Part shown: in pieces, positions 5,717-13,855 of the stretch
How the letters are laid out: each line of letters starts with the position of its first letter
Numbering within the stretch: the first letter of the stretch is position 1
NCBI GenBank assembly: GCA_021827245.1
Contig: JAKAWN010000153.1
Location: 1 to 14,029, forward strand
DNA length: 14,029 nucleotides
DNA from: Acidobacteriota bacterium
GTDB lineage: Bacteria > Acidobacteriota > Terriglobia > UBA7540
Direction of reading: 5' to 3'
Position numbers and translations under genes: made by a program
The notes under the pieces: generated by a model
The model's input: only the letters and a program-made list of their open reading frames with translations
Told to the model about the DNA's origin: nothing
The model's database searches: none

Positions 5717-6283
5717 TCAATGCTTCAGAACAGCGTGGCGGACCGTGCGTGAACTCGGTTCCTGCGTCTTCGCAGGAGAAGTCTTCAATACGGCCATTGC
5801 CGCAGAGGGAAGGGTTGTGGCGTCTTCCAGAAAGCCCGTTAATTCACTGATCTGCGTGCCACTTAGAGAGGCGCGAAAGGCCGGCATGCCCGTAAGGCGG
5901 ATGCCATTCTCAACCTTCCAATAAACCTCGCTGGCGGGATCATCAATCTTCTTTGCATTTGGCCGAAAGAATTGCGGCGGCCGAGGAAACATTCCTTTGG
6001 CAGGTCCCGTAGGAGCCTGGCTCGGAAGTCCATGGCAGAAAGCACAATCCTGCTGGTAAATATGCGCTCCGGCTACCAACGAGCCATCACTGACATTGCC
6101 TAGTTGGATTGGGGTCTCCTCGTGGTCAATCGTGGCGTGCATGGCTGTCTTAACAAGGAAGCGTTCGAACGGCATCGGCGGCGCCCAGGTCGCCACCGGC
6201 GCATATCCGGAACGCAGGTACAAAAAGAACCCTGCTGGAACCAGAATAATTCCGATTAAAAGCCCAATGAGAAATTTGCTCAT
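5717..6283 (-). CDS. membrane-anchored monohaem cytochrome c (paralogue A)
   Basis: A 188-residue protein with an N-terminal uncleaved-type anchor (residues about 4-23, FLIGLLIGIILVPAGFFLYL) and a periplasmic class-I-like cytochrome domain. The haem site is C80-A-F-C83-H84, followed by GLPS; the probable axial Met is M133 in RLTGMPAF. Conserved surroundings include GMFPRPPQFFRP and YWKVENGIRL. The start at 6283 is preferred over the longer open frame (to 6337) because the anchor begins there and GGGG lies about 10 nt upstream. A good promoter (6328-6356) sits just upstream. It is clearly a paralogue of the protein at 7386-7982, sharing LRSGYAPV, PFERF, ATIDHE, CHGLP and TGMP-F at matching positions. 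Likely role: electron transfer at the periplasmic face; the partner oxidase or reductase is not in the window. Confidence 0.9.
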   Translation of the reverse strand: MSKFLIGLLIGIILVPAGFFLYLRSGYAPVATWAPPMPFERFLVKTAMHATIDHEETPIQLGNVSDGSLVAGAHIYQQDCAFCHGLPSQAPTGPAKGMFPRPPQFFRPNAKKIDDPASEVYWKVENGIRLTGMPAFRASLSGTQISELTGFLEDATTLPSAAMAVLKTSPAKTQEPSSRTVRHAVLKH

Positions 6284-6327
6284 CGTCGAGGTGCCCCTTC
6301 CTTGACGAAGTTCGATATCGGAAACCG

Positions 6328-6356
6328 ATTCTAGCAATCTACTCGTATTAAGTCAA
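6328..6356 (-). promoter_or_regulatory. sigma70-type promoter of cytochrome A
   Basis: On the minus strand TTGACT (6351-6356), a 17-nt spacer and TAGAAT (6328-6333) match the consensus at 5 of 6 positions each. Transcription would start near 6321, about 38 nt before the start codon at 6283. The -35 box directly abuts the tandem repeat 6357-6382. Confidence 0.65.
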
Positions 6357-6382
6357 TGCCTCGCATATTTGCCTCGCATATT
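6357..6382. repeat. perfect 13-bp tandem duplication upstream of a -35 box
   Basis: TGCCTCGCATATT occurs twice head to tail, followed by a further TGC. On the minus strand it reads as two copies of AATATGCGAGGCA ending exactly at the TTGACT -35 box of the cytochrome A promoter. The placement, near position -40 to -65, suits a direct-repeat activator site. A replication slippage duplication is the plain alternative. Confidence 0.7.
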
Positions 6383-6472
6383 TGCAGTAGTCCTGCCTCA
6401 CATAGACGTTTGGTAGCGCCTATTGGGAGTATGGTGACCTCCTTTTGAGCCGATTCGTCTGAACTTCAACGA

Positions 6473-6488
6473 TGTGACGAGCGTCACA
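6473..6488. promoter_or_regulatory. CRP/FNR-type operator palindrome
   Basis: TGTGACG-AG-CGTCACA is a perfect palindrome and matches the CRP consensus TGTGA-N6-TCACA at all ten defined bases. That match is expected only about 0.013 times by chance in a window of this length. Its centre lies about 57 nt before the start codon of the plus-strand cytochrome (6538), and about 150 nt upstream of the cytochrome A promoter on the other strand. If it acts as a class II site for the plus-strand gene, transcription would begin near 6522. The regulator itself is not encoded here. Confidence 0.6.
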
Positions 6489-6537
6489 GCACCGCGATTT
6501 GGATAGGACGATTGTAACTTCAGAGCAGGAGGTTCGA

Positions 6538-7215
6538 ATGATGAAGCAATGGATCAAGGGCTCCGCGGCTCTTGTCTGCGCTTTCCTGGCGCTTTCAATT
6601 GCACATATCAAGGCACGAGCGCAAGATCAGGATGGGCAGATCGCTCATCGGCAAAGCAACACTTTAACCCTGGAAGGGCCGGCGATTCATATATTGGTTA
6701 CAGCACACCTGCCCCGATGGGAAGTTCGCAATTTAGTGACAAGTTCCCGCACCGCCCGTGATCATCCGGACCTAACCGAATACTATCGAAACAAGGCCGA
6801 TCGCTTGCAGGCCGAAGCTGAAGATTACCAGCAAATCGCGCACTCGTTTGGTGACCCGAAACCCCTCAACGCTCCCGACCACTTCAATATTGGCCGAAAC
6901 GGGCGCCACTATCACGTGATAGCGAAGCAGTGTGCCAGGCGGGCCCGAGCAGATAGCCTGCTAGCGGCTCTTAATGCTCAGGCAGCGCAAGGCGAAGGCT
7001 GCTTCAGGTGCCATAGCTTCCATGGCCGCGGCGGAAAGATTGCCCCTGACCTGGCGACGGAAGGAACTCGCAGCCGGTCGGATGCCTGGCTGATCGGCCA
7101 TTTCAAAGACCCACGAGCCTACTCTGCAGCCTCCGTCATGCCCGCTCTTGGCGGCCTTACAAACCGTCAACTCGAGGTGCTAGCCACATTTCTTGAGTAT
7201 CAGAAGGAAAAGTAG
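6538..7215 (+). CDS. periplasmic cytochrome c with helical N-terminal region
   Basis: About 225 residues, and the only intact plus-strand gene. The start is set by a strong AGGAGG (6527-6532), 5 nt before ATG ATG at 6538/6541; the frame is open to 6499 but without support. Residues about 5-28 are a signal peptide (ALVCAFLALSIAHIKARA). Residues about 70-150 are charged and helical (YYRNKADRLQAEAEDYQQIA, then ARRARADSLLAALNAQ), possibly a helical hairpin. The C-terminal quarter is a cytochrome c domain with CFRCH and a likely axial Met in ASVMPAL, ending LEVLATFLEYQ. It is unrelated in sequence to the two flanking cytochromes apart from the haem motif. It is divergent from cytochrome A and shares the intergenic region containing the CRP-type palindrome. 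It is convergent with cytochrome B (170 nt apart), with no clear terminator seen between them. Confidence 0.88.
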   Translation: MMKQWIKGSAALVCAFLALSIAHIKARAQDQDGQIAHRQSNTLTLEGPAIHILVTAHLPRWEVRNLVTSSRTARDHPDLTEYYRNKADRLQAEAEDYQQIAHSFGDPKPLNAPDHFNIGRNGRHYHVIAKQCARRARADSLLAALNAQAAQGEGCFRCHSFHGRGGKIAPDLATEGTRSRSDAWLIGHFKDPRAYSAASVMPALGGLTNRQLEVLATFLEYQKEK

Positions 7216-7385
7216 GAGGAGGTCTCGCGGTACTTAAGCCCTCCCCACAGGCGGTTCGTCCCGAATCTTAGTCTGACGGGGCAGCCATGACGGGCAAGGC
7301 CAGAAGCTGTTGGCATCAGCGCCAGGCAGAGAAGCCACAATATCGCGAAGCGACTTCATCAGCAGAATTAGAATGAAGAGAAGGT

Positions 7386-7982
7386 CTACTTGTGGTTCGA
7401 AGCCATGGCTTGGTGTGACCCGGACACCGAAGCTGCCGGCTGCACCCCTTGAGGTTGGTTCTCGAGTACGGCTATTACTGGGGGCGGCAGATTCCTGGCA
7501 TTTCCCACAAACTGGCTCACTTCCCAGACCTGCTGTTCGGTGAAGGATCCTTTGAAACTAGGCATCCCTGTCAGCCGGACTCCGTTTTTCACTTTCCAGT
7601 AATCTTTTCGAGGGGCGGGGCGAAAGGGACGGGTCTGATCATAAGCAGTGGTCTGTCCCGGCCGGAAGAATTGCGGGGGATGGGGGTACATTCCTCTCGA
7701 GATGGCACTTTGGGGTTCATTCGGGAGCCCATGACAGACGGCACAGTTATGTCGATAGAGGCGTGCACCGCTTACAAGTTCGTTCGCCGTCGGCGGACCG
7801 GCATGGGCATTCGAAAGTTCATGGTCTATAGTCGCACGCATCGCAAGCTTGGCAAAGAAGCGCTCAAATGGCAGCGGGGACGCCGAGGTCGAAACTGGTG
7901 CGTATCCCGAACGGAGATATAGATAAAACGCCGCCGGAACCAGAAGGATTCCTGCTACAAATGCGATTACGTATTTCTTCAT
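7386..7982 (-). CDS. membrane-anchored monohaem cytochrome c (paralogue B)
   Basis: A 198-residue paralogue of cytochrome A. The N-terminal anchor spans residues about 4-23 (YVIAFVAGILLVPAAFYLYL). Haem site C80-A-V-C83-H84 followed by GLPN; probable axial Met140 in RLTGMPSF. It differs from A by about seven extra residues before the YWKV block (RPFRPAPRKD region) and by its tail (a Gln/Ala/Ser-rich end). The haem site is at the same residue number in both proteins, which argues for duplication of a whole gene. AAGGAG sits only 2 nt before the ATG, unusually close; GAGG lies 12 nt upstream. The gene at 8208-8630 is 225 nt upstream on the same strand. No convincing promoter was found between them. 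The role is likely electron transfer at the periplasmic membrane face. Confidence 0.9.
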   Translation of the reverse strand: MKKYVIAFVAGILLVPAAFYLYLRSGYAPVSTSASPLPFERFFAKLAMRATIDHELSNAHAGPPTANELVSGARLYRHNCAVCHGLPNEPQSAISRGMYPHPPQFFRPGQTTAYDQTRPFRPAPRKDYWKVKNGVRLTGMPSFKGSFTEQQVWEVSQFVGNARNLPPPVIAVLENQPQGVQPAASVSGSHQAMASNHK

Positions 7983-10034: not shown

Positions 10035-11168
10035 TCAGTGGGAGACGATCCTGACGAAAGCGCCAGGGGCGAATTCCGTTACGCTGGACTTCAAGATAAT
10101 CTGCTTGAAGGCTCGACCGGAAGCAGTCGGCGACAAGAGTATCGCGGTCAAGTTGGGGTGATGGCTCAGGTACTTCCGCGTCGGCTCGGGACCTTCAACA
10201 AAGAATGACGTTGACAGCGCGTCACTGTCGGTGGCTGAAGGCGACACCACTGCCGTCGACAACATATTTTCGACAGGCATACCTGTGTGCGGGTCCATAA
10301 TGTGGGCATAGATTCTGCCGCCCAGCTTGAAGAACTTTTCGTAGTCGCCAGATACTGAAAGCGACAGATTTTGCAGCCTCAGGGTGCATGCAGCCTTGCT
10401 CTGATCAAGAGGATTCCGCACGGAAATCTTCCAGCCGTTTTCACCTGGCGGAGATCCCAAGGCATAGACGCTGCTAGTACCGCTCGAAATCAATGCATCG
10501 GTAATGCCGTCAGCACGGAGAATTCGGACGGCCTGATCGACAGCGTAACCTTTTGCGATCGCCCCGAGATCAATCTCAATTCCAGGTTCGTCAAACCGGA
10601 TTGTGCGCGTGGAAGGATCCAGCTTTACGTGCTGATAGCCGATACGCTTCAGCACCTGCGCAACCTCGGAGCTTGAGGGCAACCGCCCGCGTCCCCGATA
10701 GAATCCCCACGCTTTCATCAGCGGCCCAACAGTGATGTCGAATGCGCCCCCGCTAGCCTGGCTGTATCGAAGCGAGTCCTCAATCAGCTTAAAGAGCCGC
10801 GGCTCCACGATAACTGCATGACGGGATGCCTGACGATTTATTGAAGAGAGTTCGCTTTCCGGTTTGTAGTTGCTCATCTGGTCGTCCAGGTCATCGATTT
10901 CCTGGAAGACCTGGCCCGCCACCTCAGCCATGTAGGTGCCATCTGACCCATAGGCAACCAGGGTAAAGGTTGTCCCCATCGCCTGGTGGGAAACCTCATA
11001 GCGGATCAACGAATCCGCTGCTCTCGCCAGCGGATTCGTTCCAACACACAACAGGATAAGGAGAGGGAGCGTTCTCAGACGCCACATCCGAGGGAAACGA
11101 AAGAAATGTCCTGCAGCATCAGCAAGGTGAAAACATTGAAGCCGAATGCAGGACCGGCTGAGTGTCAT
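10035..11168 (-). CDS. apbE: FAD:protein FMN transferase (ApbE family), exported
   Basis: 377 residues from 11168. ApbE attaches FMN covalently to a Ser/Thr of target proteins, using FAD and Mg2+, outside the cytoplasmic membrane. Visible signatures: HQAMGTTF (61-68), MSNYKPESELSSINR (98-112), SGGAFDITVGPLMKAWGF (139-156), IEIDLGAIAKGYAVD (197-211), ISSGTSSVYALG (227-238), SGDYEKFF with HIMDPHTGMPV (273-299), and the Mg-binding T-D-S-D-A-L-S-T (313-320). A signal peptide begins at residue 28 (MWRLRTLPLLILL, then ARAAD), so ATG at 11087 is a strong alternative start; neither start has a good RBS. It begins 45 nt after the stop codon of the Gfo/Idh gene on the same strand and is probably co-transcribed. 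No Rnf, Nqr, NosR or FMN_bind target is in the window. Confidence 0.93.
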   Translation of the reverse strand: MTLSRSCIRLQCFHLADAAGHFFRFPRMWRLRTLPLLILLCVGTNPLARAADSLIRYEVSHQAMGTTFTLVAYGSDGTYMAEVAGQVFQEIDDLDDQMSNYKPESELSSINRQASRHAVIVEPRLFKLIEDSLRYSQASGGAFDITVGPLMKAWGFYRGRGRLPSSSEVAQVLKRIGYQHVKLDPSTRTIRFDEPGIEIDLGAIAKGYAVDQAVRILRADGITDALISSGTSSVYALGSPPGENGWKISVRNPLDQSKAACTLRLQNLSLSVSGDYEKFFKLGGRIYAHIMDPHTGMPVENMLSTAVVSPSATDSDALSTSFFVEGPEPTRKYLSHHPNLTAILLSPTASGRAFKQIILKSSVTEFAPGAFVRIVSH

Positions 11169-11213: not shown

Positions 11214-12539
11214 TTACGCCTCTTTTTTCGGCCAAGAGATCCGGGTCCCGGTGTCGATCGCACGGTTCCCGTAGATCACCGCGCGCGCGTCTGCCATGCC
11301 GATTTCAAGCGGACAGGCAATTGGCTTTCCGTCACGAATACTCGCCATGAAGTTTGAAAGTTCACTCCATCTCGGCTCGTGAGCTTCCTCATACTCATAG
11401 ATACCCATCGACGCCAGCCATCTCCTCGCATGGAAAACTTCACGGTCGAGGAAGCCCTGTTCACCCTGCGGGGCAACCTCTGGAAAGATGGGGATGCCCT
11501 TCTGGACAGCCTTTTGCGCCACTGTCGCCCCCGCCCACCAGTCTTCCTTGGCGGGTCCGGCCGATACCTTTGCCACAGCCTCGCGGTAATACATTCCCTT
11601 GCCAACAGTAATGATCAGGGTCCCATGGTCACCCATGATCTGTTCGTCGAAGCCAAAATGGGCGTTAAAAAGGATGGAACTGTACAGCATTTTCCTTCCT
11701 TGCGGATATTGGAAGATGACCTCGATGTTGTCGCAGACCTCGCGACCATCCTTCCAGTAGTCGATTCCGCCCGTTCCCACCACCGAGAGAGGCTCCGCGC
11801 CAAAGGCCCAGTTCGCGATATCAACCTGATGCGATGCCAGCTCCGCCATTAGTCCTCCGGAGTATTCTCTGTACATCCTCCAGTTAATCAGCCGCTCAAA
11901 CTTGGGATTGCGAACCGGCCGTCGCCAGTTGTTATTGCGATGCCACTGCGCGCGCACAAACATCACCTTGCCCAGAGCACCTTTGCGGATCATCTGCATG
12001 GCAACGTTGTAAAGAACGCTTGACCTGCGCTGCAAGCCAATCTGGACAACCAGCTTGGAGTTTGCTTCGGCAGCCTTCTTGATCTGGTCTCCCTCTTCTT
12101 CCTTGAAATACATCGTCTTTTCGACGAATACGTGCTTGCCCGCATTGAGCGAATCGATAACCATTTGCGCGTGCGTGTTAAGAGGCGTGGCGATTAACAC
12201 CGCGTCCAGATCTTTCCGCTCAATCATCCTCCGGTAATCCGTTGGGCCGTCTGTGTACGTGTCAGGGTTTGAGCCGATGGTTTCAACCCCTCGCTTCAAA
12301 TTGGGCGGGTAAATGTCGCAGGTTGCGATACAACGGCCTTCGGGAATGGTCGTCAGCCGCTTTAACAGGTCGCACCCTTCTGTCCCAGTACCGATGAAGC
12401 CGTAATGAACAGTGCTCCCTGGGTTAGGGTTGGTCAAGACGGCCGGCGCCGCAGCCATTGGCATGGCGCTGCCTGCCGCAACGGCCACCGCTGCAGTCTT
12501 CAGAAAGTCCCGTCGTGTTACTTCCTTTTTCTTTGTCAT
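11214..12539 (-). CDS. Tat-exported Gfo/Idh/MocA-family oxidoreductase
   Basis: 441 residues. Residues 9-33 are a Tat signal (T-R-R-D-F-L-K followed by AAVAVAAGSAMPMAAAPAV). The NAD(P)-binding Rossmann start is VHYGFIGTGTEGCDLL (44-59), with LDAVLIATP at 111-119. The family's E-K-P motif appears as VEKTM (139-143). The C-terminal domain carries GGLMAELASHQVDIANWAFG (228-247), where His237 is a usual catalytic candidate. AGGA lies about 7 nt upstream of the ATG. Family members oxidise or reduce sugars, inositols and related alcohols; the substrate here is unknown. Periplasmic members likely carry a tightly bound nicotinamide cofactor. Near the C-terminus is D-W-W-A-G-A-T (333-339), discussed as a finding. 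ApbE follows directly, so the two probably form an operon. A CRP-like palindrome lies about 91 nt upstream. Confidence 0.92.
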   Translation of the reverse strand: MTKKKEVTRRDFLKTAAVAVAAGSAMPMAAAPAVLTNPNPGSTVHYGFIGTGTEGCDLLKRLTTIPEGRCIATCDIYPPNLKRGVETIGSNPDTYTDGPTDYRRMIERKDLDAVLIATPLNTHAQMVIDSLNAGKHVFVEKTMYFKEEEGDQIKKAAEANSKLVVQIGLQRRSSVLYNVAMQMIRKGALGKVMFVRAQWHRNNNWRRPVRNPKFERLINWRMYREYSGGLMAELASHQVDIANWAFGAEPLSVVGTGGIDYWKDGREVCDNIEVIFQYPQGRKMLYSSILFNAHFGFDEQIMGDHGTLIITVGKGMYYREAVAKVSAGPAKEDWWAGATVAQKAVQKGIPIFPEVAPQGEQGFLDREVFHARRWLASMGIYEYEEAHEPRWSELSNFMASIRDGKPIACPLEIGMADARAVIYGNRAIDTGTRISWPKKEA

Positions 12540-12817: not shown

Positions 12818-13855
12818 TTATTTGGGGAAGGAAAACTTGAGTTCCTGGCCCATCTCGAAAACAGGCTTCTTGCGCTTCCGAATCAGTTCGCCTTGCTCGG
12901 ACATCGCTGTCACAAGGATCGGCATCGCAATTGTCGAATCACAATTGCAGGTAACCATGCTGGCGTCATGCGCGATCTTGCCCCAACTCTGAGCCTCTTC
13001 AAAGGTACAACCCGAAAGTCCGCCCCACTGGGGCATGTCCGTAACAATTTGCATGGCGTACTTGTGCCCATTGGCAGATTTCCGCATGAAGGTTGCTGTC
13101 ACTTCAGTCTGTTGCACAAAATTCTTGGGTGTTCCGCCGCCGAAATAGATGACCCCGCTCGCCGGTGAATCTCCCGCCAGATGAGCAGTCTCGATGACGT
13201 CTCCGATCACATCGAAAGTAAAGTGGTTCTTGCCAAGGTGCCGGTTTTCAGCAATTCCGATGCCGATCGAAGAATCCGCAATGGCCGGACAATAGAGGGG
13301 GATCCGGGCTTTATAAGCCGAGGTAACAATGCCGTCCTCATTGGCATGCTTTGAAACCTCTTTGCCGAGCAGGTAGAGGAACTCGCGGGTGGTGTAAGCT
13401 CGTGACTGATCAAGCGTGCTGGCAAAACGGCCGACGAAGGCGTCTTCCTCACGGAACTCTTCTTCATCCACCAGCGTGTCATACACCCGGTCGATCAGAT
13501 TCTTCTGTAAGTGAACGTCATCGATGGTCGGAGAACACTGGTAATGGAGATGGCCGAGGCTCTCATGAATGTCGTGGAAAAAGTTGGCGCCCGTGGAAAC
13601 CAGGCAGTCAATCAGGCGGTGCTTGATCATGTAGACCACCAGGCGCCGCATGCCGCCAGGAATCATCGCCCCTGACAGGCCCATCATGATCATGACGCGA
13701 TCACCCAGCATACGTTTCCAGATCTGGAAAGCAATGCCAAGGCTTCGGCCCTGAAAGGAGATGCCCTGCATTTTATCCAGCAGAGCTGCAGCGTTTTTTC
13801 TCCGGTCGATCTCGACAGGCCGGGTCGGGATCGTCAAGATCTCATGTTTGCGCAT
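12818..13855 (-). CDS. deoxyhypusine-synthase-like protein
   Basis: 345 residues, matching the deoxyhypusine synthase family over its whole length. Visible blocks: an N-terminal region with MMGLSGAMIPGGMRRLV (57-73) and CLVSTGANFFHDIHESLG (84-101); the NAD-binding stretch with SGVIYFGGGTPKNFVQQ (233-249); the MQIVTDMPQWGGLSGCTFEE region (268-287); and the catalytic lysine in S-W-G-K (Lys293), equivalent to the lysine that carries the aminobutyl intermediate in eukaryotic enzymes. The eukaryotic target, eIF5A, is absent from bacteria, so bacterial members are thought to act in polyamine metabolism or on unknown targets. AGGAG lies 7 nt before the ATG. It is separated from the Gfo/Idh gene by 278 nt and a hairpin, so it is probably its own transcription unit. 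No cytoplasmic export signal is present. Confidence 0.9.
   Translation of the reverse strand: MRKHEILTIPTRPVEIDRRKNAAALLDKMQGISFQGRSLGIAFQIWKRMLGDRVMIMMGLSGAMIPGGMRRLVVYMIKHRLIDCLVSTGANFFHDIHESLGHLHYQCSPTIDDVHLQKNLIDRVYDTLVDEEEFREEDAFVGRFASTLDQSRAYTTREFLYLLGKEVSKHANEDGIVTSAYKARIPLYCPAIADSSIGIGIAENRHLGKNHFTFDVIGDVIETAHLAGDSPASGVIYFGGGTPKNFVQQTEVTATFMRKSANGHKYAMQIVTDMPQWGGLSGCTFEEAQSWGKIAHDASMVTCNCDSTIAMPILVTAMSEQGELIRKRKKPVFEMGQELKFSFPK

Follow-up and report, generated by a model that had tools for sequence, protein, structure and literature searches.

The closest described counterparts of the system analysed here are the FMN_bind-type targets of the flavin transferase ApbE, such as NqrC, RnfG, NosR and PceC, which are exported, genomically tied to apbE and carry a Ser/Thr acceptor after a core of small residues, as set out in a review (PMC12052999). 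The same review gives position 4 of the canonical motif, D-x-x-[S/T]-G-A-[S/T], as Ser/Thr; the motif Asp is dispensable in NqrC, where a D219A variant is modified like the wild type (PMC4767422), and its replacement by Ala had a minor effect in one fumarate reductase (PMC12052999). In Flavodoxin_4 and FMN_red proteins, a motif-bearing insertion or extension accompanies a nearby apbE (PMC11334425), as we find for a Gfo/Idh/MocA-family oxidoreductase; the former folds already bind flavin, whereas Gfo/Idh proteins bind NAD(P) and would gain a second redox centre with the flavin. The glucose-fructose oxidoreductase of Zymomonas and the aldose-aldose oxidoreductase of Caulobacter rely on a second sugar to reoxidise their bound cofactor.

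Acidobacteriota export NAD-type Gfo/Idh enzymes, which raises the question of how such enzymes regain oxidised cofactor outside the cytosol where no second sugar serves; a further question is what many apbE genes act on, since 124 of the 178 apbE-bearing genomes in our class-level sample have no FMN_bind match. A flavinylated Gfo/Idh enzyme, if real, would answer both questions. Searches of the open-licence literature found no report linking ApbE with Gfo/Idh/MocA proteins or glucose-fructose oxidoreductase, nor any of a periplasmic Gfo/Idh/MocA protein with flavin mononucleotide; as far as that literature goes, such enzymes would be the first of their kind.

The DNA examined here (the window) is a 14,029-nucleotide stretch of an Acidobacteriota genome (assembly GCA_021827245.1, contig JAKAWN010000153.1), in which a gene for a Tat-exported Gfo/Idh/MocA-family oxidoreductase (gfo; 11214..12539, minus strand, 441 aa) is followed on the same strand by apbE (10035..11168, minus strand, 377 aa). 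The apbE reading frame starts at 11168, 45 nt from the gfo stop, as a preliminary description of this DNA had noted; its true start may be a later Met, in which case the gap would widen. The two genes form a recurring pair in Acidobacteriota. Together with the co-distribution of the two families across the class, a distinctive loop and the conservation of a Ser/Thr within it, this pairing suggests that the paired ApbE probably flavinylates the Gfo/Idh enzyme, Thr339 being the likely site, by way of a relaxed core, [A/T]-[G/S]-A-[S/T]. Whether the window is, more fully, a conserved two-gene module whose ApbE puts FMN on Thr339 and whose FMN reoxidises bound NADH is a matter on which we find belief and doubt evenly balanced.

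The apbE product belongs to the FAD:protein FMN transferase family (PF02424, E 7.2e-82; 275.3 bits against a curated cut-off of 25.6) and matches solved members. Its putative catalytic residues, Ser271 and His289, align with the Ser and His of the FMN transferases 7esa and 4xgw, and are invariant among 11 relatives; they are probably equivalent to Vibrio Ser241 and His257, as judged from an alignment to those two chains, neither of which is from Vibrio. In the alignment with 4xgw, Tyr101 stands where FAD-binding enzymes have Tyr; we take 4xgw to be E. coli ApbE, with Tyr60 as the counterpart. Some ApbEs hydrolyse FAD (PMC4767422 and PMC12052999), and this clade might mainly hydrolyse FAD or supply flavin in the periplasm and modify nothing nearby, yet the tyrosine and the retained Ser271 and His289 argue against such a role, which we consider highly improbable.

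The Gfo/Idh protein consists of a Rossmann NAD(P) domain and a C-terminal domain, and G50, G52, G55, E140, K141 and H237 are invariant across 138 aligned rows. A Tat signal region containing RRDFLK (about residues 7-26; 12462..12521, minus strand) is matched by PF10518 and TIGR01409, just above the Pfam cut-off (23.6 bits vs 22.7), with R9, R10 and F12 conserved in at least 90% of the 138 rows. The preliminary description had both proteins exported; for Gfo/Idh the Tat match bears this out, while for ApbE there is a signal-like N-terminus, judged by eye. Like NqrC and its counterparts, the Gfo/Idh protein is exported, linked to apbE and equipped with a Ser/Thr after small residues; unlike them, it lacks an FMN_bind domain (PF04205), the Pfam scan giving nothing beyond the models for Gfo/Idh and for the Tat and UCR_Fe-S_N signals, its motif Asp is unconserved, and position 4 is Ala or Thr in the family. 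Its sequence matches to the glucose-fructose and aldose-aldose oxidoreductases cover residues 101-330 (1evj) and 39-281 (5a02), and the core of the loop lies beyond both; the NAD-dependent sulfoquinovosidases 8qc2 and 8qc5 are 21-22% identical to it.

The candidate motif, DWWAGAT, lies at residues 333-339 (codons 11543..11523, minus strand), where it had been placed earlier. Translation of the window in six frames gives no other D-x-x-[AST]-G-A-[ST], and thus no exact D-x-x-[ST]-G-A-[ST], in agreement with the earlier view that no classical ApbE target is present. When the protein was shuffled 20,000 times, a site differing from the canonical motif at one position or none arose in 9.3% of shuffles, and D..[AST]GA[ST] in 0.33%; the frequency of one-mismatch sites makes the match by itself unpersuasive, so that conservation has to decide. 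Among the best 120 of 2086 homologues, A336, G337 and T339 are each kept in 120 and A338 in 118; at residue 333, 81 have Asn and 21 have Asp. Since residue 333 varies while 336-339 hold, the constant part is WAGAT, and we rejected Asp333, an element of the motif as first proposed, as an essential residue. All 120 carry Ala at position 4, where known targets have Ser/Thr; the window protein departs from the canonical motif there, and position 1 varies among its homologues. How well the loop and the gene pair are conserved is stronger evidence than the motif match.

The motif sits in a loop, residues 329-344 (11508..11555, minus strand), that is predicted to be flexible. An AlphaFold2 model built from 138 rows (mean pLDDT 86.1, pTM 0.83) replaced a poor earlier fold from 42 close homologues (pLDDT 58). 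Its segments with pLDDT below 50 are residues 1-3 and 18-37, in the signal region, and 329-344, which is the only such stretch outside that region and lies between a strand (314-319) and a helix (363-377). Burial of Thr339 in a core strand had been named as evidence against the proposal; Thr339 (codon 11523..11525, minus strand), the putative FMN attachment site, lies in the segment with pLDDT below 50 and thus in none of the predicted core strands.

Conservation of Ser/Thr at this place extends well beyond close homologues. Among 123 rows, residue 339 is Thr in 66, Ser in 54, Ala in 2 (L239 and L240) and a gap in 1 (L122); a terminal Ser/Thr thus stands in 120 of 123 when class-level and phylum-level rows are counted together, and in all but one of the 108 class-level rows (107). 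Residue 336 is Ala in 92, Thr in 29, Ser in 1 and a gap in 1, and residue 333 is scattered. The loop is rich in Ser and Ala, so the alignment may flatter these counts, and twelve of 132 rows were first left out of them, L239 and L240, both with Ala at 339, then being put back. The Ala in these two and the weaker agreement at phylum level lower our confidence both in modification at Thr339 and in the redox relay discussed below.

The pairing was followed through increasingly distant loci. In the first twelve found (L001-L012; 67-76% identity), the contig reaches far enough in nine, and in each of these nine apbE follows gfo as the next conserved gene; in one of these (L001) it is a fragment at the contig end, and in another (L005) a 96-aa reading frame intervenes. 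A wider set of 92 loci gave 91 rows after removal of the truncated L012, and 87 assessable loci after exclusion of four that were cut off. We called a locus linked if its apbE lay on the same strand and no more than 3 kb away; by this measure 35 loci are linked (23 downstream, 12 upstream; many rows are near-copies) and 52 are not, including L067, whose apbE lies at 4.3 kb. Clustering of genes within 4 kb in the 35 linked loci recovered gfo in 32 and apbE in 30, while the next most frequent family reached 9; a third recurring gene that might be the ApbE target was sought and rejected, none appearing among the 18 largest clusters shown.

A Gfo/Idh tree built without the loop columns separates a clade of close homologues with AGAT, in which apbE is next downstream, from a more distant clade with xxxT[G/S]AS, in which it is next upstream; a third clade, placed next to the AGAT clade, has apbE elsewhere. 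Loci with apbE upstream mostly read T-G-A-S or T-S-A-S (L135 has AGAS and L122 no such motif). In further TGAS-type loci apbE is upstream in 15 of 16, the exception being L173, and two read T-T-A-S. This type includes proteins from the cultured bacteria Granulicella, Bryocella and Acidipila; one protein on the AGAT side (P0286) reads LTGAT. As one alignment set the TGAS clade wrongly in the loop region, a pattern search was used there: of 120 proteins closely related to one member, 118 read TGASY and thus match motif positions 4-7 without the Asp, while one of the remaining two has another string and one has none.

It had been suggested that the motif would be kept by neighbours of apbE and lost otherwise. 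This is borne out weakly, [AST]GA[ST] being present in 31 of 35 linked and 34 of 52 unlinked loci, and all 52 loci without apbE within 3 kb still end the core in Ser/Thr. The tree shows no more than two changes of linkage, and a comparison of motif and linkage by independent pairs yielded two pairs and was uninformative. The Ser/Thr retained in unlinked loci, the two changes of linkage and the ease with which one-mismatch sites arise by shuffling speak for a reading in which WWAGAT is a lid or substrate-contact loop, resembling an ApbE site by chance, with apbE linkage inherited as a neighbourhood. We nevertheless regard this as improbable: the two clades with apbE on opposite sides both mostly keep [A/T][G/S]A[S/T], the segment is absent from 19 distant Gfo/Idh relatives (those read among L013-L033), and the core was found at the aligned place in none of 20 paralogues from six genomes (20 read of 95 matches).

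The association also holds at the level of whole genomes. In a class-level sample of 299 genomes, mostly incomplete metagenome-assembled ones, a Gfo/Idh match at 1e-40 occurs in 111 (at most five candidates per genome were scored, so paralogues may be missed), and apbE is present in 110 of these vs 68 of the other 188. The one exception, G195, carries a loop-less paralogue, as does G057; with both dropped, all 109 genomes counted as having the Gfo/Idh family also have apbE, the loop being readable in 107 and too truncated in G012 and G225; this leaves no family member from an apbE-free genome with which to compare motif conservation, as the preliminary description had proposed. The paired ApbE subfamily, as scored by a profile (A3) built from ApbEs of the same sample with a class cut-off chosen after the scores were known, is found in 102 of the 109 vs 6 of the 190 without the family, or 10 of the 190 at a bare cut-off of 1e-85; G024, G035, G043 and G160 (1e-86 to 1e-103) were left uncounted and the fragment in G076 was counted. 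Seven genomes have the Gfo/Idh family without such an ApbE score (G007, G019, G060, G070, G118, G269 and G289), and six the ApbE subfamily without the Gfo/Idh family (G028, G100, G112, G147, G207 and G292). Shared vertical descent also yields some co-distribution and explains part of it.

Agreement is weaker across the phylum. Of 297 genomes, a sample partly overlapping that of the class, 51 have a Gfo/Idh match at 1e-40, many counted without a loop check, and the ApbE profile matches 18 of these 51 and 8 of the 246 others. In thirteen of 20 chosen phylum loci apbE lies upstream, no more than 0.8 kb away, and the loop mostly reads otherwise; six of the 20 were picked for a known nearby ApbE, so 13 of 20 is not an unbiased rate. 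The linked group mostly reads QASES or EASES, without GA[ST]. L226-L238, mostly with apbE upstream, have QASES, EASES or DASAT in the loop, some followed by ISGAS or VSGTS, possibly a different acceptor sequence.

The two proteins may instead share an extracytosolic pathway in which ApbE modifies an unlinked electron acceptor and the AGAT/TGAS loop is otherwise used, a possibility that we think unlikely but weigh seriously. It is favoured by 19 apbE loci fetched from genomes in which gfo is unlinked (L144-L162), where apbE has neighbours of the infB-rbfA-apbE-hemE-hemG type (names assigned by reading) and no known target was seen near its place between the rbfA- and hemE-like genes. The ApbE tree speaks for our main reading: in it these rows (19/19) group with those from upstream (26/27) and downstream (22/22) pairings and five others; the joining branches have SH-aLRT of 89-93 and are not starred. 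Elsewhere in the tree fall 16 of 20 rows labelled FMN_bind, a label for apbE genes from stretches chosen for FMN_bind rather than for pairwise adjacency. The presence in both G025 and G063 of one apbE 3-4 kb from FMN_bind and another beside gfo counts for the main reading too. L122 and L240, which are linked to apbE without an acceptor-like residue at the place of residue 339, speak for an unlinked acceptor (L239 lacks one likewise but is unlinked), as does the clustering of apbE with loop-less Gfo/Idh and SUMF1-like proteins described below. Against it, no third gene is widely recurrent beside the pair, and FMN_bind and DUF2271 are each found in none of the 12 genomes of the L001-L012 orthologues, and DUF3570 in none of 17, yet an NqrB/RnfD-family protein exceeds the cut-off, with pieces joined, in 3 of 17 (G005, G008 and G009), where it is a possible other target. 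FMN_bind is unlisted for G059 and G090, the genomes with the Gfo/Idh proteins closest to that of the window; it occurs in 57 of the 299 genomes in the class sample, and 25 of the 108 with the ApbE subfamily have it.

If the paired ApbE does flavinylate the Gfo/Idh enzyme, a mechanism can be outlined. The Tat-exported NAD-type dehydrogenase and its own ApbE would act as one module: the exported ApbE would take FMN from FAD and attach it to Thr339 in the mobile loop, recognition requiring the core [A/T]-[G/S]-A-[S/T] and dispensing with the Asp of the textbook motif. The tethered flavin would most likely reoxidise the enzyme-bound NADH and then pass the electrons along, which would let an exported NAD enzyme turn over without cofactor exchange. 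More tentatively, and with somewhat more doubt than belief, we propose that these proteins represent covalent NAD-FMN relay dehydrogenases, each with a dedicated ApbE and a swinging loop, in which bound NADH feeds an envelope respiratory chain. Were modification at this core borne out, the ApbE acceptor code would widen to [A/T]-[G/S]-A-[S/T], and the rule by which genomes are searched for ApbE targets would relax.

Several neighbouring genes deserve mention. Three small c-type cytochrome genes (CBB3/FixO-like) at 5717-7982 of the window are possible electron carriers; they do not belong to the families that clustering repeatedly placed near gfo and apbE. Upstream of gfo lies a deoxyhypusine-synthase-family gene (12818-13855), of which an 85% identical neighbour adjoins gfo-apbE in L034. 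At six other loci of the class (L208, L212, L213, L217, L218 and L221), apbE accompanies an FGE/SUMF1-like protein and a loop-less Gfo/Idh gene, Pfam having been run on the SUMF1-like proteins of four; in L213 and L221 this protein is fused to a NapC/NirT-type cytochrome, and these clusters may constitute a second Gfo/Idh-ApbE electron-transfer system.
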